Positions 44,116 through 58,641 of a DNA stretch of 64,000 bases are shown here, one piece after another. Position numbers and translations under genes: made by a program. Origin of the DNA: an uncultured Tateyamaria sp. (GTDB lineage: Bacteria > Pseudomonadota > Alphaproteobacteria > Rhodobacterales > Rhodobacteraceae); NCBI RefSeq assembly GCF_947487805.1, contig NZ_CANKXW010000001.1, forward strand, positions 867,501 to 931,500, given 5' to 3'. How positions within the stretch are numbered: position 1 is the stretch's first letter; each line of letters starts with the position of its first letter. The notes below the pieces were generated by a model. The model searched no databases. It had not been told where the DNA came from and saw only the letters and a program-made list of their open reading frames with translations.

Positions 44116-45908
44116 CAAAACGCCTGTCCAATCCCGATGTAGATTTCGAGGCCGGAACTGTCGCCGGGGCCTGAGCCGGGCAGCGCCATGTCAAAGCGGA
44201 TCGGGCCAATACCAGTGTCGTACCGGATGCCTGCGCCGTAGCCGGTATGCCATTCGCCCGAGCCATCGATAAAGCTTTCTGCGCCGATATAGCCCGCATC
44301 GTAAAAGGCAACGAGCGATAGCGCCTCACGCGAGGTTTGCACGCGCACCTCGCCCGACAGGCCAAGGAAAGACCGGCCTCCAATTGTCGTCGTGGGCGTC
44401 AGATCCACGCCAAGCGATTGGTAATCCTGGCCGCGTACCGTGCCACTGCCCCCCGAAAAGAACAGGTAGTCGGCCGGAGCCACGTCTAGGTCCGGACCCG
44501 CGACCGATCCCAGCAGGCCGCGAAAGGCCAGTGTCACGCGGTCACTCACTTGCCGATAGGTGCGCAGATCCAGCGTGGTCACGACGCCATTTTCTGTGCC
44601 GTCGATGTTGAAGAACGGGGTCACGGCGGCCTGTGCATAGTATCCTGCCGTTGCATTCAGCGGGTCATTGCGCCGGTCAAATGTAAAGGTGAACGGAAAG
44701 GTCAGAATGGTATAATCCCGCTCGCCAAGATCATCACGCGTCTTGGACCGACGCAGGCCAACGCCGTAACTGTATTCCCGGTCTTCGGAGGCGAAATAAA
44801 GCGTTCCGAACTCGAGCACACCGGTGCGGGCAAACAGGTTGGGATCGTCGCGTTGTTCGATCTCGGCGCGGATGAACGCTTCGAGATCGGTGCGCCATGT
44901 GGCGGGGCGGGACAATTTCGCACCCAGCCTGAAATCCACCCCTTCCGTATCGCCGCCGACGCCCTTGATCTCGCCTTCGATCTGCAACCGTTCGGCACCA
45001 CCAAAAATGTTGCGGTGCAGCCAGAGAGCGCTGGCGCTGAACCCATCGAGCGTTCCGTATTCCGCGCCAAAACTGTAGCGGCGGGGCAGTTGGTCCGTGA
45101 TCGTGGCCGTCACATCCAGAGTGCCATCCGGATTGGCCGTTTCGGCCTCGGTCAGCGCGGCCGACGCAAAGGTTCCAGTGCGGCGCAGGCGGGTTTCGAC
45201 CTTGTCCAGCGTATCGGGGTCAAACACCTCGCCCGAGGGCCACCCGGCGATTTGGCGGATGCGCCGTTCGCGCACCGCACTTTCGCCCGTAATGGTCAGG
45301 CGACCCAACCGTAGGCGGGGGCCGGGCTCCAGCGTCACGGCGGCGTTCAGCGTGCCGTCGGGATGGCGGGCGGTGATGCGCTGACCTGCCACGGCGGCCT
45401 TGGCATGCCCCGCCTGACGCCACCCTTCGATCTCGGCGCGCGTCGCGTCGCGCAGGACGGACACGCGCGCCGTCTCGCCGCGGGCAAAGCCCGATGTGGG
45501 TTCCGTTTCTGGTGCTTTCGGCGTTATCGACAGATCGCCAAAGGTAAACACCTTGCCGGGGTTGACGGTCACGACTACGTTCGACACGGCCCGCGGTGCC
45601 GCAATCGGCGCGATGGACGCAGCCTCTCGACCATCCAGCGTGATGCTGATCTGGGGCCCGAAGTACCCCTGATCATAAAGCAGGGCGATGATCCGGCCGT
45701 AATCGGCCTGTGCCGCACTCAGGATGTCGATAGGCAGGGGGGCTTCTTCGGCTTCGGTATCGGCAAGCGTTGCGGTCAGCGATGCCGCGCGAATGTCATC
45801 CTGCAGCGGGTCTGGAGCCTGCACGTCCAGCGTCAACGCCAGCCCTTGCCCGGCCAGCCAGATCACGGAAAAAGCGGCTGCCAATACGCGGCAGAAGGGG
45901 TTTGACAT
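44115..45908 (-). CDS. tamA: Outer membrane assembly protein TamA
   Basis: Starting at the ATG at 45908 (GGAG 8 bases upstream), the 597-residue protein has a signal peptide ending near GQGLA, three POTRA-type domains (about 30-270; ILSAAQADYGRIIALLYDQGYFG, PNPGKVFTFGDL-like, TITGESAVRERRIRQIAGW) and a C-terminal 16-stranded Omp85 barrel with the lid motif VRGQDYQS and the terminal GIGQAF aromatic end. It is the outer-membrane partner of TamB, which is coupled downstream. Confidence 0.92.
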   Translation of the reverse strand: MSNPFCRVLAAAFSVIWLAGQGLALTLDVQAPDPLQDDIRAASLTATLADTEAEEAPLPIDILSAAQADYGRIIALLYDQGYFGPQISITLDGREAASIAPIAAPRAVSNVVVTVNPGKVFTFGDLSITPKAPETEPTSGFARGETARVSVLRDATRAEIEGWRQAGHAKAAVAGQRITARHPDGTLNAAVTLEPGPRLRLGRLTITGESAVRERRIRQIAGWPSGEVFDPDTLDKVETRLRRTGTFASAALTEAETANPDGTLDVTATITDQLPRRYSFGAEYGTLDGFSASALWLHRNIFGGAERLQIEGEIKGVGGDTEGVDFRLGAKLSRPATWRTDLEAFIRAEIEQRDDPNLFARTGVLEFGTLYFASEDREYSYGVGLRRSKTRDDLGERDYTILTFPFTFTFDRRNDPLNATAGYYAQAAVTPFFNIDGTENGVVTTLDLRTYRQVSDRVTLAFRGLLGSVAGPDLDVAPADYLFFSGGSGTVRGQDYQSLGVDLTPTTTIGGRSFLGLSGEVRVQTSREALSLVAFYDAGYIGAESFIDGSGEWHTGYGAGIRYDTGIGPIRFDMALPGSGPGDSSGLEIYIGIGQAF

Positions 45909-46026
45909 CGGCAGCACTCCGCCGCGCGCAGCGCACGGCTCTGTACACGAATGCCAAAACTTTGCCAAAGGTTCCAGCAGTTATCTGTGTTCTGTGGATA
46001 ACGCCCGCGTGACGGCGTAAATCGGC

Positions 46027-49000
46027 TCAGGTCTTGACGTAACCCGCGACCACCTGAAGCAGCCGGAACGCCGTCGCGGCGTCGTTCTCAACCACGGAAA
46101 TGAACTCTTCCTCACCGATGCGCAGGCAGGACAGCTCGGACTTGGCACGCATATCGAGTGCGCGCGGTTCGCTGCGGATCAGGCCCAATTCACCCACCAG
46201 CGCACCGGCACCAACGGTGGCGATCAGCGTGTCGTCCTGACCTTCGACGGGCAGCAGCAGGTCGGCCTCACCGTCAAGGATCATGTAGGCGCCGTCCTTG
46301 GGGTCGTCGTTTTTGTGGAACACGTATTCACCGGGGGCGGCCTTGTACCAACGCGCGCCAAAGGCCAGAAGGCGCAGCTGTTTGCGTTTGAGACCTGAAA
46401 AGAGCGGCGCGCTGCTCAGTGCCTCCAGCTTGCGGGCAAGGTCCGCGCCGACCTCGCTGTCGGCCTCGGCGCGCGCGCCTTCTGCCCCCACCAGACGGCC
46501 CTGTTGCACCTCGACATGCATGTCGAAAATGTCCTCGTTTTCAAAGCTTTCGGCCAGGAAAATCAACACCGCATCCGGCAAGAGCGCGCGCAGGTTCGCC
46601 ACCAGCGCGTCCTGTACCTCGGCGTCATAGCTGGCCATCGCCTTGTCGAGGATGAGGATGTCGGGGCGTTTGATCGTGGCGCGGCTGATCGACAGCGGCT
46701 CTGCAAAGAGCGCGGGCAGGTTGGCACCACCCAAGGCGATCGGCACGTCAAAGACCAGTTCCAGCACCAGCTGGCTGATGCCCTCATCGGCCAGGACCTG
46801 ACCCACCACGCGGCGCAACTCTTCGCCGCGGGTGCCCGCGCTGTCGGACACTTTGCCATAGAGCGCGTTTTCCAGAACTGTCAGCCCGTGCACATATTGA
46901 TCCGGCACGATCGGCACAAACAGCGGGTCCATCTGCGCGCGCAGCATCTCCGCGTGATCGCGGCGCATGTCCAGAACGCGCGCCTTGACCTCGTCCGGGA
47001 ACGACGGCCCGACCTGTTCGGCGGTCACACTGGTCGGGACGCTCAGCAACAAGGCCAGTTCGCCGTCGGAAATCTCGCTGCCCGCGGGTTTGCGGTTCAC
47101 CAGATCCAACGCGGCCTCGTAGACTTCGACCTCAAGGCCCACCTTGCGGAAAAGGGGGTGATCCGTGCCCGTTGCGCCAAAGATCTGGCGCAGCATTTCG
47201 ATGATGTTGCGCGCCAGCGTCTCGAGGTTCGACGCCAGTTTGAGGTCATGCAGCAGGCGCAGGAACTCCAGCTTGGCCTCGATGATCTCAGGCGTGATTT
47301 TCTCGCGCGGGGTGGCAAACAGCAGGTTTTCCGCGACCGGCAGGGCGGGGTTGTAGGCCTCTGGATCGAAACCGTGCACAAAGCGCGACAGGCCAGCATC
47401 CCCGATGGCGGCGGCCACTTTGGGACGCACCGAGACCAGCGCCGCGGTCAACTCGGGATGGGCCTCGGCGTCATAGGTCTGGTCCATGGTGCGGCGGGTC
47501 AGCACCTCGCCACTGCCGGACCGTTCGATCAACGTGTACCACCAGCGCCGCAGCGCATCGCGGTCCTCCACCCCGGCAATGCCTGGATCCAGCCAATGGG
47601 CCTTGAGCATGTCCGCCGAATTGCCCGCGCGCACGGCCTCGCGGAAAAAGTCGTTGTCCTCGCCGGGGGCCACAGGTGCCACGCGCATCGGCATCATCAC
47701 GTTCTGGCCATAGCTGCCCTTGAACAGGATGGGACGTGAATTGGCGTGGCCGATGCGTCGGGCGATTGTTGCTTGGTGCAAGCTGCGAATGTCCTCGCCC
47801 GCCAATGTGACGGTGCCGGATGTGGACAGTGTCTCGCGTGTCAGCACCTCGGCCAGCGCGCGGCGGTCCTCGTCATTGGGGGCAGTGATCCCTACGGTGC
47901 TGCCGGCCGGGAAGGTGACCGTGATGTCTTCGAGTACGGGGTTGCCATCGCCATCGCGCACCGTGACCTGATCCAGTGCCACGGGGCCCTTCAATTCGGG
48001 GATGGTGTCGACTGGGCCATAAAACAGATCGTCGTCGATCATGCCCTCCGGCGCAAATCGTTCGGTAATGGTGTCCCAGCGCAGCGACATGTCAGCGGTC
48101 TGGTTGTAGTAGGCCAGCAACTCTTTCCATGGGCTGGACAGATCCTTGTAGGCCGCCAGCGCCGCCACCAGCGCACCAATGGTCACATCACCCTGAATGA
48201 CCAGATAGCCACCGATGGAAAAGAAGAAGAACGGCGTTAGCTGCGTGATGAAGTTATTGAGGAACTTCATGAAGAATTTCTTTTGGTAGATCTGGAAACG
48301 GATCGCAAAGAGCTGGCCCAGCCGGTCTCCGATCATCGCCATCCGGTAGCGCCAGCCTCCGTTGACCCGCAACGTGCCTGCCCCCGCTGCCCCTTCGCCG
48401 ATCTCTGCGGCAAGTGCGCGGACCTGTACCACGCGTTTCTTGTTCAACTGGTTGATCTGGCGTTGTAATTTCGGGATCAGCCATGCCTGCAAGGGGATCA
48501 GAGCGATGGCCGCGAACCCGAAGGCGATGGACTGAAAGAACAAGAAGCCCAGGATTGTCAGCATCTGTCCCGCTTGCAACACCGGCTGGGCCACCGCATC
48601 GCCCATCAGCCCACCCATTGGCTCGCTTTCGGCGGTCACCATGCTGACCAACTCGCCCTGGCTCGTACGTTCAAAATAGGGCTGCGGAAAGCGCAGGATG
48701 CGCGCGATCAGCGTATAGCGAAACCGCCTCAGGAGGCGCTCGGCCAGCACACCTTTCATGGTGTTGATCCGCATCTTCATCAGACCGTGCAGCAGCACCG
48801 CCACAAGAAAAGCGCCGCACAGGATCATCAGGTAGGTGATCTGGTCAAACTCGAACCCATATGCGGAAATCGTCGATGATCCGGAGCCGATGGCGTCATT
48901 GATGATCTGCTTGGGCAGTTCCAGCGTCAGGTACAAAAGTGGGAACAGTGACAGCGTCACAACCAGCAAGATCAGCTGATCGCGTTTCGAATATTTCCAG

Positions 49001-49077
49001 ATGAAGGCAAAGAGGCTGCGTTCGATTGGGATCTTCCAATTTTTTGTTGCCCGCGATACACCGGCGTCCGGTGCAAT
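46027..49077 (-). CDS. ABC exporter-like protein with degenerate ATPase motifs and cyclic nucleotide-binding domain
   Basis: Residue numbers are from TTG 48969 (980 residues). Residues 1-300 form an exporter-type membrane domain. The nucleotide-binding domain (about 325-840) is recognisable but lacks key motifs: the Walker A position reads VGITAPNDEDRRAL (no GKS/T), the signature is SISRA in place of LSGGQ, and Walker B ILILDKAMASYD has K where the catalytic Glu belongs. Some 250 extra helical residues (about 430-690) are inserted. Residues 855-970 are a cNMP-binding domain with an intact phosphate cassette (GELGLIRSEPRA; E927, R936). The frame upstream of 48969 encodes a family-like start (SLFAFIWKYSKRDQL) but has only ATT (49077) after the in-frame stop, so the start is unresolved. 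Probably a regulated, ATPase-dead membrane protein. Confidence 0.8.
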   Translation of the reverse strand: MAPDAGVSRATKNWKIPIERSLFAFIWKYSKRDQLILLVVTLSLFPLLYLTLELPKQIINDAIGSGSSTISAYGFEFDQITYLMILCGAFLVAVLLHGLMKMRINTMKGVLAERLLRRFRYTLIARILRFPQPYFERTSQGELVSMVTAESEPMGGLMGDAVAQPVLQAGQMLTILGFLFFQSIAFGFAAIALIPLQAWLIPKLQRQINQLNKKRVVQVRALAAEIGEGAAGAGTLRVNGGWRYRMAMIGDRLGQLFAIRFQIYQKKFFMKFLNNFITQLTPFFFFSIGGYLVIQGDVTIGALVAALAAYKDLSSPWKELLAYYNQTADMSLRWDTITERFAPEGMIDDDLFYGPVDTIPELKGPVALDQVTVRDGDGNPVLEDITVTFPAGSTVGITAPNDEDRRALAEVLTRETLSTSGTVTLAGEDIRSLHQATIARRIGHANSRPILFKGSYGQNVMMPMRVAPVAPGEDNDFFREAVRAGNSADMLKAHWLDPGIAGVEDRDALRRWWYTLIERSGSGEVLTRRTMDQTYDAEAHPELTAALVSVRPKVAAAIGDAGLSRFVHGFDPEAYNPALPVAENLLFATPREKITPEIIEAKLEFLRLLHDLKLASNLETLARNIIEMLRQIFGATGTDHPLFRKVGLEVEVYEAALDLVNRKPAGSEISDGELALLLSVPTSVTAEQVGPSFPDEVKARVLDMRRDHAEMLRAQMDPLFVPIVPDQYVHGLTVLENALYGKVSDSAGTRGEELRRVVGQVLADEGISQLVLELVFDVPIALGGANLPALFAEPLSISRATIKRPDILILDKAMASYDAEVQDALVANLRALLPDAVLIFLAESFENEDIFDMHVEVQQGRLVGAEGARAEADSEVGADLARKLEALSSAPLFSGLKRKQLRLLAFGARWYKAAPGEYVFHKNDDPKDGAYMILDGEADLLLPVEGQDDTLIATVGAGALVGELGLIRSEPRALDMRAKSELSCLRIGEEEFISVVENDAATAFRLLQVVAGYVKT

Positions 49078-49207
49078 CTACCAAGGCGTTTCGCTTGAAA
49101 TCAATGGCCCGCGCTGAATCGTTTGGGCCGGATGGTGCATCAGACGCATTGCGGCATTCGATTTGCCCGCCTAGGATGCAGGTAATCGCCAGCGCAGAGG
49201 ACCTTCC

Positions 49208-49588
49208 TTGGCCGATCCTGTTACATTCGTAATCGTGTTGCTGTTTCTGTTGCAAACCAAGCATCTGTTTGCGGACTTCTACTTGCAAACGCCCCGGATG
49301 CTCCGGGATAGGGGGCGGTATCTGCACTTTGGCAGGGTGCAGCACGCGGGATTGCATGCTGTTGGATCACTGGTTGCGATGGTCGTGGTGGGTGTGCCCG
49401 TGCCGTTGGCACTGGTCGTGGCCGTGGCGGAATGGGTTGTGCATTTCCACATCGATTTCGGCAAAGGTCGGTGGTCGGACCGTACGGGTCACGGACCGCA
49501 TCAGGCAGGGTACTGGCGTGCCTTCGGCGTCGACCAGGCGCTGCATCAGTGGACCTATCTGCTCATGGTGTTGGCGGTGCTGCCCTGA
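49208..49588 (+). CDS. DUF3307 domain-containing membrane protein
   Basis: The 126-residue protein matches the small DUF3307 family: first helix (FVIVLLFLLQTKHLFADFYLQ) with the conserved KHxxxDF/YLQ, HAGLHAV, then AVAEWVVHFHIDFGK and DQALHQWTYLL. About three to four helices; the conserved His/Asp residues suggest metal or proton chemistry in the membrane, function unknown. The start is TTG 49208 with AGAGGA upstream. It lies alone on the plus strand between the adenylate cyclase gene (adjoining stop) and the degenerate ABC gene (divergent). Confidence 0.82.
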   Translation: MADPVTFVIVLLFLLQTKHLFADFYLQTPRMLRDRGRYLHFGRVQHAGLHAVGSLVAMVVVGVPVPLALVVAVAEWVVHFHIDFGKGRWSDRTGHGPHQAGYWRAFGVDQALHQWTYLLMVLAVLP

Positions 49589-51316
49589 TCATTCGGCTGC
49601 GGCACGTTGCGCGCTGAGTGCTGCGAAATTCGGCACCGGGTCGGCATAGCCTTTCAACGGGATCGGATCGAGCGTTTCGAAAACCACATCATCCAAACCT
49701 TCGCCTGCCTCCCGCGTAGCACGATCGATCAGCACCTGACCGGGATCGGCTTTGGAACACAGCCGCGCGGACAGGTTCACAGTCGAACCCAGCACGGTAT
49801 AGTCCATCCGGCTGGCCGCCCCCATCGCGCCCATGACAACCTCGCCCGAGGCCACGCCGATGCCTACGTGTAGGTTGTAATCGGGGAATTTCTCCAGCAG
49901 GGCCTGCATGGCATCGATGATCTGAACAGAACAGCAAATGGCGCGCCGTTCCATGTTCTCCCCTTCAAACACGGCAACAAGGGCGTCGCCGATGAACTTG
50001 TCGACATCGCCTTCGTGCTGCACCACGATCTTGTTCTGCGCCTCGAAATATTCGTTGAGCGCCTCGATCACCACCTCCGGGGCAACCCTTTCGGAAAACT
50101 CGGTATAGCCCCGGATATCGGTAAAGATCACTGACACCTTCTTGCGGACGCCGCCCCTCTCCATCCCCTCACCGGAGCTTTGGATGGCTGACATGGTGCC
50201 GTGGCTGACGAACTTCATCAGCTCCAGCCGTTCGCCCAGTTCGGCGATCATCCTGTTCACCCGCGTCGACAGCTGGCCCAGTTCGTCGCGCGATTTGACA
50301 TTTGTGACCCGCGCGGCGAAGTCACCGGTGCCCACCTTTTCCACAGCCTCGCCGATACGCAGGATCGGACCGGTCAGGCGGCGGGCAAAGATCAGCGCGC
50401 CGACACTCGCCAGCGCAAAGCCAATCGAGCCGATGATCAGGATCTGCCGCGTGATGGCATTCACCACCGCATAGGCGCTTTCCTCGGTCAGTTCGGTGAT
50501 GACAGCCCATGGAAACCAGTCGGGAAAGGCATAGGCCCCCAACACGTCGGTCCCGTCGGGGCGGGTATAGGTCTGGAGCGCATTGGCCCGTGCACCGGCC
50601 ACGATCAGCGGCAGTGCCGATTGAACGATTTCGCGTTCGAGGATCAGTTCAGGGTCCGGCCCCAGCACCGTGCGCCCGGCCTGGTCGATTACGGTGATGT
50701 CGCCACGTTGTGCAAACGGGTGCTGCTGCACCAGCCGCGACAGAGATGACAGTTCGATCCGCGCGGTCAGCGTCACCTGCCGCCCCGCGATCTTGGTGTT
50801 GAGAGGCAGCGCGAGCGTTGCGATCCAGTTGCCGGTCTCTTCGAGCCGGGAAATCAGCGGGCGGCCGAACTGTCCGGTTTCGGCAATGTTGGTGATCAGG
50901 TCCGAGGACACTGTCAGCACCTGCACAGGATCAAGACCGGCATCCTCCAACCGCTGCGAAAACGCCTGATCGGTTGCCATGATGGGCAGGTTGCTGCCCG
51001 CGACGGCCAGCTGCATCGACACCACGTCCGGCAACTCTTGCAGGCCCAGCGTCAGCAGCGACACCTTTTGCGGCACATCCAGATCGTCGCTGTCGATCCC
51101 GTTGCGGATCACCATCAGGGGTGACAGCCAGCGCCCTTGATAGGTCGTGTCGAACTGCCCCTGCAATTGCGCGGCCACCGTCGTCAGATCCTCGTTCGCG
51201 GCCGACTTCAGCTCATCCCGGCTGAGGCGTTCGAGGTTCTGGCCCACGATCGCCAGCGGCGCCACGGCAAGCAGCGTTGCAAACAGGAAGAATTTGAGAC
51301 GCAAGGGGAACCACAT
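49589..51316 (-). CDS. Membrane-bound class III adenylate cyclase with sensor and HAMP domains
   Basis: The 575-residue protein has a first helix (8-26), a ~260-residue extracytoplasmic sensor of the dCache type (30-288), a second helix (290-312), HAMP (312-365) and a class III cyclase domain (390-560). Metal-binding D400 (FTDIRGYT) and D444 (FIGDALV), substrate-specifying K440 and D505 (the adenine pair), and transition-state N514 and R518 (STVNLSARL) are all present, so it should make cAMP. It follows the giant PKD protein by 55 bases on the same strand, and probably senses an envelope or small-molecule signal. Confidence 0.93.
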   Translation of the reverse strand: MWFPLRLKFFLFATLLAVAPLAIVGQNLERLSRDELKSAANEDLTTVAAQLQGQFDTTYQGRWLSPLMVIRNGIDSDDLDVPQKVSLLTLGLQELPDVVSMQLAVAGSNLPIMATDQAFSQRLEDAGLDPVQVLTVSSDLITNIAETGQFGRPLISRLEETGNWIATLALPLNTKIAGRQVTLTARIELSSLSRLVQQHPFAQRGDITVIDQAGRTVLGPDPELILEREIVQSALPLIVAGARANALQTYTRPDGTDVLGAYAFPDWFPWAVITELTEESAYAVVNAITRQILIIGSIGFALASVGALIFARRLTGPILRIGEAVEKVGTGDFAARVTNVKSRDELGQLSTRVNRMIAELGERLELMKFVSHGTMSAIQSSGEGMERGGVRKKVSVIFTDIRGYTEFSERVAPEVVIEALNEYFEAQNKIVVQHEGDVDKFIGDALVAVFEGENMERRAICCSVQIIDAMQALLEKFPDYNLHVGIGVASGEVVMGAMGAASRMDYTVLGSTVNLSARLCSKADPGQVLIDRATREAGEGLDDVVFETLDPIPLKGYADPVPNFAALSAQRAAAE

Positions 51317-51371
51317 GGGCGGACCTTAGCCGATTCAGAGGGCCAACGATATGGCGGTATTGCAGACCTTT

Positions 51372-54300
51372 TCAGTTCCCCCGCGCGCGTGCATTGACTG
51401 TTGCGGTGTCGACACTTGAGCCGCTGGACAGGCCCGTCGTGTCGCTGGCCGTGACCGTCACCGTATAGGATCCCGGCGCGGAATATGCGTGGCGCACGAT
51501 GGCCCCCGACGCGGTTGTCCCGTCGCCAAAGTCCCACTGAATGCTCAGCCCATGGCCATCCGCGTCCACTGCGTCGCTTGCATCAAAGACCACCACGTCA
51601 TGGGCGGCCCCCACCGGTACATCGCGGTCCGGGCCCGCATCGACCGATGGGCTGGAGTTGACCAGCACGCGCAGCGTATCGGTGTCGGTGGCGCAGGCCG
51701 ATCCGCTGTCATCGCGGGCCGAAAGTTCCACCGTGACCGGGCCACTGGCGTCAAAGCTACGCTCGACCTGCGCGCCGTTGAGGGTCACGCCGTCACTGAA
51801 GGTCCAGACATAGTCGATCAGCGCGCCATCGAGATCACCGGACGCCGAGGCGTCAAACTGCACCGCCTCGCCGGGATTGACGATCTGGTCCGGTCCCGCA
51901 ATCGCGGTGGGTGTCGCGTTCACCCGCACATAGACTTCTTCGCTGCGACGGCTGTTGAGCAACCCCTTGCCGTCATCCAGCGACACCGTAACAGGATAGA
52001 GACCCGGCGCGCCAAAGCTGTGGGAGACCGAGGCCCCCGTGGCCGTCGTACCGTCACCAAAGCGCCAGGAGACGCTGGTGGTTTCGTCCACCGATACGGA
52101 CCACGGCGTGGCAATGCCGGTGCAAATCTGTTGCGTGACCTCCAGTCCCACGGACGGGGCCGGGTTGACGGTAATCATCCGTTCGACCGTCACAGCAGAG
52201 TTGCCGACGCCCGCGTCGTCCATCACCGTCAGACGCAAGGTGTAGGTGCCCGGCGTGTTATAGGCATGTGCCACGGCCACACCGCTGGCGGTGGTCCCGT
52301 CGCCAAAGTCCCATGCGAACCCGGTAAGCGCACCGTCCGCATCGACGGACGCAGAGGCATCGAACACCGCCGCGGCGCCAACCGCAATCCGGTCAGGGCC
52401 ATCAAGGCCCGCCATCGGCGCTTCGTTCACGATCACCTTGCGCCGGGTTTCCACCTTGTCGAGACCCGAGCTCAACCCTTCGAGACGTGTCACGAGGTTG
52501 GCAAAGTAGATGCCCGGTTCGGCAAAGACGTAGTCGACGCTGTCCCCCGTCGCCGTGCCGCCATCGGAGAATGTCCATTCCTGCGCCGTCACGGTTGCCC
52601 CGTCCAGATCGGTGACCTGCGCCACGAAAGTGGCGGGCAGGCCAGCTGCGGCGCGGTCCTCTGCGACAATCACCTGTTCCGGGGCTGGCAGGACCTGCAC
52701 ATTTGCGGTGTCGGTGTCGAGCGGGCTGCAATCACCCACGGCCTCGCCCTGAATGGTCAGGGTCACGGGATAATTGCCGGGGTTCTTGAACCGGTATTCG
52801 GGCCGTTCACCGCTGGCCGTGCCGCCGTCGCCCATGGTCCAGCTGAACGCGTTGACCGCGCCATCCGCATCCGTGGATCCCGAGCCGTCAAAGCGGACGG
52901 GCTGGTTGGTATAGACCACGAGGTCCTCGCCTGCGTTGGCAATCGGGCCTTCGCGCACCAGAACGGCAATGCGGTCCACGTCGCTGCCCCATTCGGTGCC
53001 CTTGCCGTTACGCACGCGCAGGGTCACAGGGTAGGCGCCGGGATTTTCATAGATCTTGGTTGGGTTGATCAGGTCAGAGGTACTGCCATCCCCGAAGTCC
53101 CAGGAATAGAGCAACAGACCGCCATCCGGATCGACACTGTCGGAGGCGTCAAACAGAATGGACTCGCCCGAGCACACATCCCGGTTGCCACCTGCATCCG
53201 CGAGGGGGCGCGCATTGACGACAACGGTGGTCGCATCAATGGCCGTCGCGTTGCTGAGGCCGGTGCCGTCGTTCACGCGCAGCGTGACCGGGAATTTGCC
53301 GGACCGGGGATACACATGCGTGACCGTGCGGCCCATGCGCGGCGCGGAGCCATCACCCATGTCCCAAGTATAGACCAGCGCGTCGCCATCCGCGTCGGCA
53401 GAGGCGGACGCGTCCACCGTCACCTGCAACACGTCGGTTTCGATGTTTGGCCCTGCTTCGGCCACGGGGGCGGCGTTCACGCGCACCGTCATGTCGTCGG
53501 CATCGGTGGAATTGGCCACGCCCGCCTGATCCGTGACAACCAGCTGCACGGACCATGTGCCCGGCGTGTCATAGCTGCGCGTGACCTGCGGTGTGGTCTG
53601 GGCGGGGAACCCGTCGTCGAATTCCCAAAGGTAGCTGACGATCTGGCCGTCGATGTCAAAGCTCTGGCTGGCATCCAGCACAACCGGATCACCCGGCGCG
53701 ACCAGCAGGTTTGCACCCGCCTCGGCCACGGGGGCCGCATTTACAGTGATCAGGACATCGTCGTCGTCACGGGCCGCACCACCGGTAAAGCTGTCAAAGA
53801 CCGACAGACCGATACGGTAGGTGCCCGGCTCGGAAATGGCGTAGCCGATCCGTTCCTGGTCCATGGTCGCTCCGCTGGGCAACTGCCATTCATATGCGCT
53901 GATCGCGCCATCGGGGTCGAGCGAGGACCGCGCGCTGAGCACGAATTCCTCGTCCGGGGCCACGACCTGCGGCGGGCCAGCATCGGCGATAGGTGTGGCG
54001 TTGACCGTCACCAGCATCGTGTCGCGGTTGGAATTGAGCGGCGCGCCGCTGGCGTCACGCACAACAAGCGCAACCTCGTAGATGCCGGGACGCGCAAAGG
54101 CGTGCACAGGGCGCGGACCGGTGGCCGTGCCACCATCGCCGAACCGCCATTCATAGGCCGAGATCGTGCCATCGGGGTCGACCGACCCGGTGCCATCGAA
54201 TTGCACTTCGGACGCGGTCACGTATTGATCGGGGCCCGCATTGGCCACAGGCGCTGCGTCGATCACGATCTGCCGCGTGGTGCGCTGCGTGGCGGACGCC

Positions 54301-56225
54301 GTGCCGCTGTTGTCTGTCACGGTCAGGGCGACGGTATAGACGCCGGGCGCGGTCCACGCATAGCTGACAGCCTCCCCTTCGCCCATTGCGCCGTCACCGA
54401 ATTCCCACAGATAGGACAGGATCACCCCATCGGCGTCGGTGCTACCCGACCCGTCAAGCAGTGCGGCCTCGCCCACGGATGCGGGGCGGTCGGGGATGAC
54501 AATGGCCGGTTCTGGGGGCGAGTTGACGCCAATGACCAGCGTGTCGGAGGCCTGCGCATTGGCGACACCACTGTCATCCGTGACAGTCAGTGCAACGGTA
54601 TAGCGGCCCGGTTCGGCGTATTGGTGCTGTACGGCGACACCGTTCAGCGTGGTGCCGTCGCCCATGTCCCAAACATAGGCGCCGACATTGCCGTCCACGT
54701 CATAGCTGGCCGATCCGTTGAGCGATACGGTCTGACCCACCTTGGCGGTCTGATCCGTGCCGGCCTCGGCCACGGGGGAGAAGTTCACCGTGATGTCGCG
54801 TGTTGCCACCCCAAAGTTACACGGATGCAGGCTGTCATCGCTGACGCGCAGGACCACGCGGTAGGCACCGGGTTGGGCATATTGCTTTTGCGCCAAGGGA
54901 CCTTCGACCTGTTCGCCATCGCCAAAGGACCAGACATAGCGGGTGATCGGGCTGTCCGAGGGCTGCGACGCGGTGCCGTCAAAGGGGATCACCTCGCCCG
55001 GGGCCACGACAATGGCTGCACCCGGCTGGGCGACGGGGGCCGCGCGCACATGCACCGGCACCTCGACAGAGGCACCCGCACCGGGGCGGCCGCCCTCTTC
55101 GAGCACCTTAAGAATGGCGGTGTAGCGACCGGGCTGGTCATAAAGATGTGCGATCACCGGCTCGGCGGCGCTGTTGCCGTCGCCGAATTCCCAGACATAG
55201 GATAACGGATCGCGGCCGATCGACCGGCTGCCGTCAAAGGCGACTGACTGGCAATTGGCAAGCGGGCGGCCCGTGCCAACGGCAGTGGGGCGCGCGGGAT
55301 CCAGCGTGCGGCGCGGCGGCATGTTCAGCGCAACGGGCGCGCCTGTGCCATCAAACACGGCGACGGTCACATCATTGGGCGTCTCGAACCCTTCGGCAAG
55401 GCTAAGCGCGAGGTTGTCCTCGCTGGTGTCGACGCTGTCGACGGTCCAGAAATCCTGACCCGAGACCTGCACGCGCAGGTCCTCGTAGTCGGTGACGATC
55501 GCGATGTCGCCATTTGCGGCATCGAAGCTCTGGACCGAATAGGGCCCCTGGGTGCCTTCAAAACCCACGCGGGTCGCGGTGCCTGCGCGGGTCCAGCGGA
55601 TCGTCGGCTGATAGGAAAACAGTTGCAGACCATCAGGCGCGCGATCCCGGTCACGGGCGCGGCTGACATTTACAGAGAACCCGTTGCCGTCATTGCCGCG
55701 TGTGCCCTCAACATCGATGCGGAAATAAGACCGCCCGCCTAGTTGCTCGCCCTGCCGGGCGCGGACGGCGCCCAGCGTGACCCAGCGCCCATCGGTATTG
55801 CGGTCACTGTCATATGCGCGTTCAAGCACGACGCGGCCGGGGCCTGTTACGGGGAAATCAGGGCGCGCACGGTCGGCACGCGCGCGGTCTTCGACCATCT
55901 CCGGCCGGTCGGCTGCTGAAAACGCACCATCGGCGCCAAAAACACGGAAGGTGGTGACCGAATCGCGCGGCCCGCCATAGGTGAAATCATCCTGACCGAA
56001 GATCTCGGGGTCAAACAGGCGCACGAACACACGCCCCGACGTGTCAGACGGGATGGAAAAGAAGATCTGCTCGCGCCGATCCACGTCACCCTCGCGGGTC
56101 TGCGCCTGGGCGCCATAGACGACGATCAAGCCCTCATCGACGGACTGGGCCGCCGCAGGCAAGGCCGTCACCATCAACATCATGGCCAAAACACGCCCAA
56201 TACTGCGCATCGCAATCCCCATCAT
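51372..56225 (-). CDS. Giant secreted/periplasmic PKD-repeat protein
   Basis: The ATG at 56225 has GGAGG 7 bases upstream, giving 1617 residues. A signal peptide (VLAMMLMVTALPAAAQS) is followed by a ~300-residue N-terminal region (SIPSDTSGRVFVRLFDPE, DNLALSLAEGFETPNDVTV) and then about 15 PKD beta-sandwich repeats of ~85-90 residues to the C-terminus. Most carry the W-x-F/M-G-DG core (YVWEFGDG, YTWDMGDG); one copy reads EWQLPSG. No catalytic domain, LPXTG, or membrane anchor is seen. PKD repeats mediate protein or polysaccharide contacts at surfaces. The gene lies between the LysM/FecR gene (52-base gap) and the adenylate cyclase gene. Confidence 0.88.
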   Translation of the reverse strand: MMGIAMRSIGRVLAMMLMVTALPAAAQSVDEGLIVVYGAQAQTREGDVDRREQIFFSIPSDTSGRVFVRLFDPEIFGQDDFTYGGPRDSVTTFRVFGADGAFSAADRPEMVEDRARADRARPDFPVTGPGRVVLERAYDSDRNTDGRWVTLGAVRARQGEQLGGRSYFRIDVEGTRGNDGNGFSVNVSRARDRDRAPDGLQLFSYQPTIRWTRAGTATRVGFEGTQGPYSVQSFDAANGDIAIVTDYEDLRVQVSGQDFWTVDSVDTSEDNLALSLAEGFETPNDVTVAVFDGTGAPVALNMPPRRTLDPARPTAVGTGRPLANCQSVAFDGSRSIGRDPLSYVWEFGDGNSAAEPVIAHLYDQPGRYTAILKVLEEGGRPGAGASVEVPVHVRAAPVAQPGAAIVVAPGEVIPFDGTASQPSDSPITRYVWSFGDGEQVEGPLAQKQYAQPGAYRVVLRVSDDSLHPCNFGVATRDITVNFSPVAEAGTDQTAKVGQTVSLNGSASYDVDGNVGAYVWDMGDGTTLNGVAVQHQYAEPGRYTVALTVTDDSGVANAQASDTLVIGVNSPPEPAIVIPDRPASVGEAALLDGSGSTDADGVILSYLWEFGDGAMGEGEAVSYAWTAPGVYTVALTVTDNSGTASATQRTTRQIVIDAAPVANAGPDQYVTASEVQFDGTGSVDPDGTISAYEWRFGDGGTATGPRPVHAFARPGIYEVALVVRDASGAPLNSNRDTMLVTVNATPIADAGPPQVVAPDEEFVLSARSSLDPDGAISAYEWQLPSGATMDQERIGYAISEPGTYRIGLSVFDSFTGGAARDDDDVLITVNAAPVAEAGANLLVAPGDPVVLDASQSFDIDGQIVSYLWEFDDGFPAQTTPQVTRSYDTPGTWSVQLVVTDQAGVANSTDADDMTVRVNAAPVAEAGPNIETDVLQVTVDASASADADGDALVYTWDMGDGSAPRMGRTVTHVYPRSGKFPVTLRVNDGTGLSNATAIDATTVVVNARPLADAGGNRDVCSGESILFDASDSVDPDGGLLLYSWDFGDGSTSDLINPTKIYENPGAYPVTLRVRNGKGTEWGSDVDRIAVLVREGPIANAGEDLVVYTNQPVRFDGSGSTDADGAVNAFSWTMGDGGTASGERPEYRFKNPGNYPVTLTIQGEAVGDCSPLDTDTANVQVLPAPEQVIVAEDRAAAGLPATFVAQVTDLDGATVTAQEWTFSDGGTATGDSVDYVFAEPGIYFANLVTRLEGLSSGLDKVETRRKVIVNEAPMAGLDGPDRIAVGAAAVFDASASVDADGALTGFAWDFGDGTTASGVAVAHAYNTPGTYTLRLTVMDDAGVGNSAVTVERMITVNPAPSVGLEVTQQICTGIATPWSVSVDETTSVSWRFGDGTTATGASVSHSFGAPGLYPVTVSLDDGKGLLNSRRSEEVYVRVNATPTAIAGPDQIVNPGEAVQFDASASGDLDGALIDYVWTFSDGVTLNGAQVERSFDASGPVTVELSARDDSGSACATDTDTLRVLVNSSPSVDAGPDRDVPVGAAHDVVVFDASDAVDADGHGLSIQWDFGDGTTASGAIVRHAYSAPGSYTVTVTASDTTGLSSGSSVDTATVNARARGN

Positions 56226-56277
56226 TCTTCGTCCTCCAAGGTTCGGCGCCGCGCAGATGCGGCACCGTCCCACCCAG

Positions 56278-58641
56278 TCACCGGAACGCAGCGTTCCCGG
56301 CGTAATCTTCAATCACCACTTCGATCAGTTGCAGCGCGCCCGGCTCCGGCGGCAGGGCCGCCCGGCACACGCCAGACGTCGCATCGCAGCGCAGGAACCC
56401 TTCGCGTTCGGCGTCGCCCACCTGCAGCAAGTAGGATGCCGCCTGCCGCAGCCCGCTGGCATCGCTGGCCACGACCGTGATTTCGATCGGGCCGCCTGCG
56501 CCATTTGGCCGACCGACATTGACCGATTGCACTTCGGGCGGATCAATGTCGTAGAGCGTCTGTAAGCGCGAGGCGCTGACATTGCCCACGGCATCCGTCG
56601 CCACGAGGTCAAACAGGTTCAAGCCCGGTGCGAGGCTGAGCGAAAAGGCAAAGCGCCCCGCGTCCATCGGCACATCCACCCCGTTGATCGTCAATTCGGT
56701 CGCATCACCGGCGCTGCCGATCAGCTCAATCTCGTCCTGATCCGTGGCCTTGGGCGGCGGACTATCCAAGGCGGTTTCGGGCGCTGTCCGGTCACGAACG
56801 GCCTCAAAGTCGAGCCGCCCTTCGATCAGGCCCGTGGGCCCGAGCACCGCAATCGTGTAGCCGCGCGGCGTTTCCTCGGCGGGAACCGAAAAACTGATCG
56901 CGCCGGCAGCAGCAACCACGGTCCGCAGGATCTCTGTGCCACCACTTTGCACCAGTACGTCCGCCCCCTGTGCCGCATTCGAGGCCGCGAAGACCGACAG
57001 TTCGGCAGACCGCGTCGCCAGAGCAGGGCCAACACGGGGCAGAGCAGGGGACAGGCTGACGTCGATCTGTGCAGCGGGGCGGTACACGACTGTCTGCGCG
57101 GTCGCACTTTCGTTGCCCGCGGGATCAATTGCCCGCAAGGTCAGGATGTTGGGCCCAGGCGTCAAAGCTGTATCGAGGATAAAGCTGCCATCAGAACCCA
57201 GCGGCACGGGCGTGCCATTCAACTCGACCACCGCATCGGGTTCGGAGGCCCCGAAAATCTCGATCCGCGGTTCTGTCACGATCTCCCCGTCACCGGGGGC
57301 AAGCAAGGTCAGGAACGGCGGCGTCTTGTCCACGCGCAGGGTGAAAGATTGCGGCACGCTCCATTGTCCGGGCAGACCCAGACGGTCCAGCGCGGCGACA
57401 CGCCAGTGATAGGTGCGCGGCGGCAGGGCCTCGGTGTCAAAGGTGGTCCCGCGCACGCCCCATTCGGACACCTGCATCTGGTTAAAGCCGGGATCCAGCG
57501 CGACTTCGACCCAATAGGCCTCGGCGTCGGCAAATGCCGACCAGCCCAGCGGTGCAAACCCGTCATAAAGGATCGCGCCCAAATCGGGTGAAACCAGCGA
57601 TGGTGCGTCCAGCACCGCGGCGCGCTCCGCGCCGGACGCAGTCAACACCAGCCCCTCGTTTTCATTGACCTGGATAGTCTCGTTGCCGTCCTTGATCTCG
57701 AGCGCGGGCGTGTCGTAGTTGACGAAACGCGCGCCGCTGGAATCGTTCTTGATCCAGAAATCGCCGGAATTGGTTGTCGTCTCCACGCCGGGTACATCGA
57801 CCTCAAAGGCGGTCTTTTCCGACAATTGGTTGAGCAACGCATAAAAATCCCCGTTCACGAGGCTCACCTTGGTCACTTCGGTTCCGGTCAACGGGTCTGA
57901 ACGCATTCGCTGGATCGTGGCGTTTGAATTGGCGTTCAGCCGCAATCGGCTGAGGTCCCGGAATGTGACCTGTGTGGTACTGTCGGACAGGGTGCGTACG
58001 CGTTCGAATTCGACCAGCACATCGTTCAGGCCACGCCCGCTCCAGCGGGGTTCCTGCGGCGCGCGCCCTTCGACATCGCCTTGCACATCCGACACGACCG
58101 CCTCGGCGGACCGGTCCCGCTGCGCGATCGAGATATCGAGCGCCTCCATCGCCAGCAATGTGGCAATGTCCGACAGGTCGACGACCTCGACCCATGCGCC
58201 GACCTCGCGCCGCCCCACAGCCGCTTCGCGATTCTCCAGTGCTTCGCCGATTTCCTGCGGCGCGAACACCTGCGCGCCTTCCGCGTTGGCGGCCTGGATG
58301 GCGGCCAGTGCCTCGGCCAAGGCCGCATCTGCCGCGCGGACCTGCTTCACCGGCAGTTGGAGTGCAGTACCTGGCACGACGGCCGCCGGAGATGAGATTG
58401 CGTTCAACTCAAGTACATAAGGCCACAGATCGGGATCATTCAGGAAATCTCCCACGATGCCGCGTAGCGTGTCATTCTCTCCGAAAACCACCGTCTCCAA
58501 TGGCGCGTTCAGATCTGCGGATTGCGCGACGCCTTGCGCTGCAACGGCAGAAAATACGCCGGCAAACAGAACGCGTTTCAGCGCTGAAATCGCTTGTTCA
58601 AAACCACGCAAACCGTTTCCCCCAGTTTTTAGGCGTGACAA
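56278..58641 (-). CDS. LysM/FecR domain-containing envelope protein
   Basis: Up to 787 residues: signal peptide (LFAGVFSAVAAQGVAQS), a LysM-like region (about 47-98; VVFGENDTLRGIVGDFLNDPDLWPYV, PGTALQLP), a helical linker, a FecR-type domain (about 180-300; VVSDVQGDVEGR, LRLNANSNATIQRM), then several Ig-like/glucodextranase-type beta modules (PPFLTLLAPGDGEI; FGASEPDAVVELNGTPV). No ATG is available; the start is TTG 58641 or, with a better GGGGGA spacing, TTG 58611. LysM would hold it to peptidoglycan. FecR-type proteins are often encoded beside membrane cyclases, and here it leads the row with the PKD protein and the adenylate cyclase. Confidence 0.82.
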   Translation of the reverse strand: MSRLKTGGNGLRGFEQAISALKRVLFAGVFSAVAAQGVAQSADLNAPLETVVFGENDTLRGIVGDFLNDPDLWPYVLELNAISSPAAVVPGTALQLPVKQVRAADAALAEALAAIQAANAEGAQVFAPQEIGEALENREAAVGRREVGAWVEVVDLSDIATLLAMEALDISIAQRDRSAEAVVSDVQGDVEGRAPQEPRWSGRGLNDVLVEFERVRTLSDSTTQVTFRDLSRLRLNANSNATIQRMRSDPLTGTEVTKVSLVNGDFYALLNQLSEKTAFEVDVPGVETTTNSGDFWIKNDSSGARFVNYDTPALEIKDGNETIQVNENEGLVLTASGAERAAVLDAPSLVSPDLGAILYDGFAPLGWSAFADAEAYWVEVALDPGFNQMQVSEWGVRGTTFDTEALPPRTYHWRVAALDRLGLPGQWSVPQSFTLRVDKTPPFLTLLAPGDGEIVTEPRIEIFGASEPDAVVELNGTPVPLGSDGSFILDTALTPGPNILTLRAIDPAGNESATAQTVVYRPAAQIDVSLSPALPRVGPALATRSAELSVFAASNAAQGADVLVQSGGTEILRTVVAAAGAISFSVPAEETPRGYTIAVLGPTGLIEGRLDFEAVRDRTAPETALDSPPPKATDQDEIELIGSAGDATELTINGVDVPMDAGRFAFSLSLAPGLNLFDLVATDAVGNVSASRLQTLYDIDPPEVQSVNVGRPNGAGGPIEITVVASDASGLRQAASYLLQVGDAEREGFLRCDATSGVCRAALPPEPGALQLIEVVIEDYAGNAAFR

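Follow-up and report, generated by a model that had tools for sequence, protein, structure and literature searches.

What does a protein do if it is built like an ATP-binding cassette (ABC) exporter but lacks the motifs of an ATPase? This question is raised by a gene in a 64,000-nucleotide stretch of DNA from an uncultured Tateyamaria sp. (positions 867,501 to 931,500 of NZ_CANKXW010000001.1; hereafter, the window). The gene (46027..49026, minus strand) is predicted to encode 999 amino acids (aa) from a proposed ATC start codon at 49024..49026, which is about where homologs begin to align and which is supported by the start codon analysis below. The predicted protein has a transmembrane domain (TMD), a degenerate nucleotide-binding domain (NBD), and a domain for binding cyclic nucleoside monophosphates (cNMP). 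The account that we prefer, and hold tentatively, is that an ABC exporter has turned into an ATP-independent, cNMP-sensing membrane component of one glycan pathway and that the copies in roseobacters are weakly translated.

The frame from stop to stop (46027-49077, minus strand) has 1016 codons, with no internal stops in its translation. The window's genome is itself near Tateyamaria, and the best relative in our genome collection is 89% identical. All features of the gene are on the minus strand. The most conserved part is the exporter-type TMD (48001..49023), which matches ABC_membrane from Pfam (3.3e-17 in a 980-aa open reading frame [ORF], 63.5 bits against a cutoff of 28). The first part of the NBD, up to the Q-loop position (47737..48000), was recognized from a structural model and from a match to ABC_tran of 19 bits, which is below the cutoff of 25 and covers positions 1-79 of the 137 in the Pfam model. 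Then comes a post-Q-loop region with an insertion (46753..47736; from the alignment and a separate structural model), followed by the last part of the NBD (46483..46752), where the letters and the alignment show that the signature, Walker B, and H-loop positions are all altered. The cNMP-binding domain (46081..46338) matches PF00027 (1.2e-13 in the same ORF, 51.3 bits against a cutoff of 27.5), and its phosphate-binding cassette, GELGLIRSEPRAL (46156..46194), has a Glu and an Arg that are invariant in 51 aligned orthologs. NCBIfam had nothing above its own cutoff among the best 25 of 87 matches, and Rfam had nothing at the gathering score within 45900-51400.

An initial annotation, made from the sequence alone, had already described an intact frame, an exporter-like membrane domain, a Walker A without GK(S/T), a replaced signature, a Walker B Glu changed to Lys, and a cNMP domain that keeps its Glu and Arg. 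These features are all borne out by the letters and the matches. It also described about 250 helical residues inserted in the NBD. The insertion is present, and mostly helical in the models, but its size is nearer to 270 residues, because 328 residues separate the Q-loop region from the signature in the window protein as compared to roughly 60 in a canonical exporter.

How thoroughly have the ATPase motifs been lost? The window protein's Walker A region reads GITAPNDEDRRAL, its signature region reads ALGGANLPA, its Walker B reads ILILDK, and there is an E at the H-loop position; so it has no GK(S/T), no LSGGQ, no Walker B Glu, and no H-loop His. The former Walker A itself is now GITAPNDEDRRA (47857..47892), which resembles APSEEDRRA, a string that is conserved across the roseobacter orthologs. 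We aligned 170 distinct sequences, of which 82 are orthologs from roseobacters, 4 are paralogs, and 84 are other members. The initial annotation had set out beforehand a check of homologs for intact Walker and signature motifs as a test that could refute it, and the full set of GK(S/T), LSGG, and the catalytic Glu is found in 0 of the 170. LSGG alone is found in 0 of 170 as well, Walker A with both K and S/T in 3 (all among the 84 others, with 0 of 82 and 0 of 4 among the roseobacter orthologs and the paralogs), and the D and E of Walker B together in 10. At the catalytic-Glu position, the usual residues in roseobacters are N, S, K, or Q, with E in 7 of 82; the Lys in the window protein is not conserved. 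This family-wide loss of motifs argues that ATPase activity is absent, and the fold of the NBD is nevertheless predicted to be intact (2.3 Å over 222 residues as compared to the NBD of ComA).

Lost motifs would also fit a pseudogene or a decaying copy, but this is almost certainly not what the gene is. From the conserved start, 79 of 80 roseobacter loci have a single frame of at least 950 aa (only L043 is interrupted, with a 543-aa piece), and the string that replaced Walker A is itself conserved. Between the window and six congeners, dN/dS is 0.04-0.08 for the TMD, 0.09-0.18 for the start of the NBD, 0.11-0.23 for the insertion, 0.10-0.28 for the signature part, and 0.04-0.14 for the cNMP domain, and although these values are rough because dS is near saturation, they indicate that all of the domains are under purifying selection. 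Values of 0.04-0.28 and the absence of any member with the full set of motifs refute decay and support the initial annotation's claim of a maintained protein that is not a pump. As a side note, the match in Sinorhizobium meliloti 1021 (pSymB) is in two pieces, with a frame that appears to be disrupted near the start, and several other S. meliloti records have it in one piece.

Another alternative is that the NBD binds ATP or ADP without hydrolyzing it, so that the protein senses the energy state as well as cNMP. CFTR and SUR are somewhat similar ATP-binding regulators. Loss of Walker A is graded, because members outside the roseobacters typically have GKD or GKE: 48 of 84 have the Lys, and 70 of 84 have D or E at the S/T position. 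On the other hand, Arg replaces the Lys in 82 of 82 roseobacter orthologs, and few members have both acidic residues of Walker B. We consider a nucleotide-sensing role quite improbable.

Alternatively, the protein might be the dead half of a hetero-oligomer whose active ABC half-exporter is encoded elsewhere. Heterodimers with degenerate sites are known among ABC exporters, which is a precedent, and the window's genome has 119 matches to ABC_tran. But the composite sites would lack the LSGGQ of the dead subunit. We noticed no half-exporter adjoining the gene in annotated neighborhoods, although we made no systematic search, and the two-NBD ATPase that is encoded nearby probably belongs to an importer that is complete by itself, because genes for a binding protein and two permeases accompany it. 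We think that such a partnership is improbable.

The family is widespread in one class of bacteria. Scanning a single genome from each species, we confirmed 406 relatives and retained the best 80 (L016-L095), nearly all of which are roseobacters or Rhodobacteraceae by the title of the record. Of the 385 genomes in a sample of Alphaproteobacteria, 129 have matches at 1e-40, and of 149 genomes from the window's own family, 31 have matches at 1e-60. In a sample of Pseudomonadota, 32 of 398 genomes have matches; 31 of these are from the window's class, and the other is a short frame that resembles the TMD only. We view the family as well supported. (L081, whose record is titled Nocardioides marinus, is a Leisingera-like copy in our tree and is probably mislabelled or contaminated.) There are also paralogs: the window's genome encodes one at 52% identity. 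The roseobacter paralog (L010/L015, L137, L139, L140, and L298) has an ATG start, and in Ruegeria sp. AD91A, it adjoins accD and a gene for folylpolyglutamate synthase.

Where did the insertion come from? It appears to repeat the NBD's own post-Q-loop module. Module 2 (47308..47457; FDPEAYN..ENLLF) and module 3 (46849..46995; VPDQYVHGLTVLENALYG) share a pattern of helix, strand, helix, strand in the models, and comparing their profiles with hhalign gave a probability of 98.8%. Modeled alone, 46756-47718 has a pLDDT of 86.9 and a pTM of 0.79. A Foldseek comparison of this model to the PDB gave 0 matches at E ≤ 0.001, even to ABC exporters (the best E was 1.3), and a profile from the alignment of the insertion hit nothing among PDB sequences at E = 1. 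A missing match does not prove that the fold is new. Separately, in L295, L296, and G708:C3, the match is split at the insertion even though the frame is open, which hints at a length variant.

What might control this protein? In roseobacters, the cNMP domain is fused to the ABC protein. For a broader view, we used 82 diverse loci, with about 10 kb on each side where the contig allowed, of which five (L136-L140) are from the window's family. There is a cNMP match in 77 of these loci, either as a separate nearby gene (67) or in frame with the ABC gene (10). For example, Rhizobium johnstonii (RL_RS29990 and RL_RS29995) and S. meliloti R28 (Q1M62_09080 and Q1M62_09075) have annotated split pairs of adjacent genes. 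All 81 roseobacter sequences have the cassette's Glu and Arg (77 by pattern and 4 by eye), as do, by pattern, 72 of the 82 diverse loci; of the other diverse loci, 3 had no match and 7 differ. Because roseobacters retain these two residues and because the diverse loci so often have a cNMP gene close by, regulation of the ABC protein by cNMP, which the initial annotation had suggested, is plausible.

The link to a glycan comes from gene neighbors and from co-occurrence. A conserved glycosyltransferase (GT) gene, of family GT4, is present in 57 of the 82 diverse loci, and in 52 it is on the opposite strand. The genes around it encode a histidine phosphatase, two proteins of the GT28-C type, another GT4, and two proteins that no Pfam family matches; in some genomes, an importer whose solute-binding protein is of family 5 is encoded near this cluster as well. 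A relative of Methyltransf_17 is found in 40 of the 82 loci. In the window's genome, the GT4 gene is 489 kb from the ABC gene. Nevertheless, the two genes occur together even where they are unlinked: of the 385 alphaproteobacterial genomes, 123 have both, 6 have only the ABC gene, 4 have only the GT gene, and 252 have neither (phi = 0.94, from counts that are not independent, because the genomes share ancestry). In other words, both are present in 123 of the 133 genomes that have either. The control, phaC, which we chose as an unrelated gene with a patchy distribution, gave a phi of 0.38. Similarly, 8 of 8 roseobacter genomes with the ABC gene have the GT4 at 1.7e-128 or better, while 20 genomes from the window's own family in which we found no ABC gene have one weak relative (37%, 9.5e-66) and zero of ortholog grade. 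The genes smb20804 and smb20805 are said to affect KPS, according to an excerpt of PMC5539429, but we failed to place them relative to the ABC locus and made no use of them.

If the protein belongs to a glycan pathway, the TMD might still move nothing. Instead, it could be a membrane anchor that assembles the glycosyltransferases and reports cNMP to them; a membrane scaffold, perhaps regulated by cNMP, had also been suggested in the initial annotation. The missing catalytic motifs fit such a scaffold, as do the 83 of 341 TMD columns with at least 90% identity across the 170 sequences, many of them charged, which might be a docking surface. Furthermore, relatives without any NBD exist. A protein of 434 aa on the Phaeobacter plasmid pP66_b (L156:7659-8963) has the family's TMD and no NBD, and four more loci (L289-L292) have frames of about 400-425 aa, which are too short for an NBD, with about 40-44% identity to the window protein's TMD. 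Therefore, some TMDs of this lineage are joined to a dead NBD, and others have no NBD at all. (In 4 of these 5 loci, genes for a cupredoxin and a protein like multicopper oxidases are close by, and 4 of 5 have a cytochrome c; L290 has just a weak and distant oxidase match.) The TMD does, however, retain the signature of the exporter family according to Pfam, and we consider a pure scaffold or sensor unlikely, if a serious possibility.

How is the protein translated? The first ATG, GTG, or TTG in the window frame is a TTG at 48967-48969, inside TM1. We examined 82 roseobacter sequences (the window, L096, L097, and all of L016-L095 except the interrupted L043). The codon just ahead of their conserved N-terminus, ERSLFxFIWK, is ATA in 60, ATC in 19, and ATG in 3, so 79 of 82 have ATA or ATC; ATA makes up 3.5% of the Ile codons in the same genes. 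In the window, GGAAG (49033..49037), which resembles a Shine-Dalgarno sequence, ends 6 nucleotides before the ATC, and across the 82 sequences, there is a G at -11 in 78 and at -10 in 77. Upstream positions are otherwise little conserved, except for a C-rich stretch right ahead of the start. Paralogs have an ATG start in 4 of 4 cases, and 81 of the 84 members from outside the roseobacters have ATG, GTG, or TTG at most 14 codons ahead of the aligned Phe. On a FastTree tree, the three start states need 17 changes, while ATG versus non-ATG needs 4.

We considered two other starts. An upstream start in the same frame is rejected for 47 of 78 sequences with ATA or ATC, in which no ATG, GTG, or TTG follows the upstream stop ahead of the conserved N-terminus; the others could have such a start, although their upstream positions are little conserved, as noted above. 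We also reject the downstream TTG. Just 19 of the 82 have a TTG at that position, and variation in the 18 preceding codons is 0.39 at third positions as compared to 0.12 and 0.05 at the first and second. As a control, a canonical start was lacking for 46 of 81 sequences of the ABC gene but for only 72 of 734 sequences from 31 other gene groups at the same loci. Of the 72, 51 came from three groups (24/29, 15/16, and 12/13) in which the test misplaced the first block; for these groups, every display of the conserved N-terminus showed an ATG or TTG start. The other groups account for 21. So the roseobacter gene appears to start at AUA or AUC, which we consider well supported by these comparisons. 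It follows that annotated N-termini may be wrong. In the one case that we checked, the RefSeq protein from Ruegeria sp. TM1040 begins at a TTG, 17 codons past the conserved ATA.

A similar start is seen in infC. In the window's family, infC begins with ATA or ATC in 29 of 30 loci, with one unread (these are the best 30 of 57 genomes); in genomes that carry the ABC gene, it does so in 39 of 40, again with one unread. The infC loci in our analysis include that of the window's genome. We had considered that the two starts might co-vary, but we dropped this claim: in the 39 genomes that were read, the pairs (ABC gene/infC) are ATA/ATC in 15, ATC/ATA in 12, ATA/ATA in 5, and ATC/ATC in 5, with ATG for the ABC gene in 2. 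Non-canonical starts with similar conservation were found by ribosome profiling in Staphylococcus aureus, namely the AUA/AUU starts of ccpN and cvfC1, and an excerpt of that report states that expression from such starts is kept low and that initiation factor 3 modulates them (IF3; PMC13009471). Like infC, ccpN, and cvfC1, as far as that excerpt describes them, the ABC gene has a conserved non-canonical start with a Shine-Dalgarno sequence. Unlike them, it encodes a membrane protein of about 1000 aa in roseobacters, and its start comes from comparing sequences.

From these observations, we infer a mechanism with no ATPase activity, cNMP control, a glycan-related role, and sensitivity to IF3. 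A dimer of the TMD would carry or organize either the glycan itself or a lipid-linked precursor of it; the NBD, expanded but dead, would no longer drive the TMD and would instead relay the state of the cNMP domain; and the AUA or AUC start would keep synthesis low and sensitive to IF3. In its most specific form, the protein would be a cNMP-gated, ATP-independent conduit for a particular alphaproteobacterial glycan, its NBD made into a relay, for a cNMP sensor that is fused or separate, by multiplication of the post-Q-loop module and its level in roseobacters tied to IF3 by the start codon. We consider this most specific form rather unlikely to be right in every part.

The window also has two neighboring genes. 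Upstream of the ABC gene is a gene for a dCache-HAMP-class III cyclase (49589..51316, minus strand; from Pfam, with dCache below its own cutoff), whose catalytic residues we presume to be intact, judging by eye. Between them is a divergent DUF3307-like gene (49208..49588, plus strand), named for a Pfam match to its ortholog in L095, and tblastn finds a match to it in 80 of 80 roseobacter loci. Beyond the cyclase, 51372-56312 (minus strand) encodes a 1646-aa protein with 15 PKD stretches.

Several observations weigh against the account that we prefer, of an ATP-independent, cNMP-sensing member of a glycan pathway. The link to the cyclase is weak, because just 14 of the 80 roseobacter loci have a cyclase near the ABC gene. 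In five diverse loci, of which three are the roseobacter paralogs in L137, L139, and L140, Asp replaces the Glu of the cassette. The GT genes of roseobacters are not adjacent to the ABC gene, with a GT4 in 1 of 80 loci, and common ancestry confounds the co-occurrence (the phi of the phaC control is not 0). Those members that have the Lys of Walker A could still bind nucleotides. That the insertion arose by repetition depends on sequence profiles, because its model had no match from Foldseek. In the model of the full protein (mean pLDDT of 75.7, pTM of 0.56), parts of the TMD are below 50. Finally, because the start states of the ABC gene and infC are uncorrelated, we can only infer that IF3 controls both.

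How does this family compare to known systems? It has the TMD family and fold of type IV ABC exporters (MsbA, PCAT1, TM287/288, and ComA), with an NBD fold after the TMD, but it differs in that the full set of motifs is missing from all 170 members, in its insertion, and in having a cNMP domain that is fused C-terminally or encoded nearby. CFTR and SUR are also exporter folds that serve for something other than ATP-driven pumping, but they retain at least one site that hydrolyzes ATP and are not known to have a cNMP domain. The nearest described protein that we found with both an exporter and a cNMP domain is HetC from Nostoc, which depends on its ATPase and is built differently. In the excerpts of PMC10986499, HetC has a C39 peptidase domain, an essential catalytic residue in its ATPase, and a cNMP domain at the N-terminus, to which ppGpp binds in vitro. 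In contrast, members of our family have their cNMP domain at the C-terminus or in a separate protein, the ATPase motifs are gone, and the 980-aa ORF has no Pfam match to the C39 peptidase at E up to 1. The ABC/cNMP genes of Methylobacterium, as excerpted from PMC6858071, are two ABC genes of about 540 aa beside cytochrome bd genes, which is a different arrangement. We found no paper about this family in the open-access literature; subscription papers and preprints were outside our scope, so an earlier description is possible.

Beyond what the initial annotation described, our analysis adds the linkage to glycan genes, the probable repeat origin of the insertion, the relatives without an NBD, and the start codon. 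If the start is correct, then a large membrane protein joins the few genes that are known to have a conserved near-cognate start. The plasmid records that we examined annotate members of this family plainly as ABC transporters. Yet across much of one class of bacteria, these proteins have the fold of exporters and, judging by their motifs, are not ordinary ATP-driven exporters, even though they are conserved and tied to a glycan pathway. This makes it possible to test whether the TMD of an exporter can work without ATP and under the control of cNMP.
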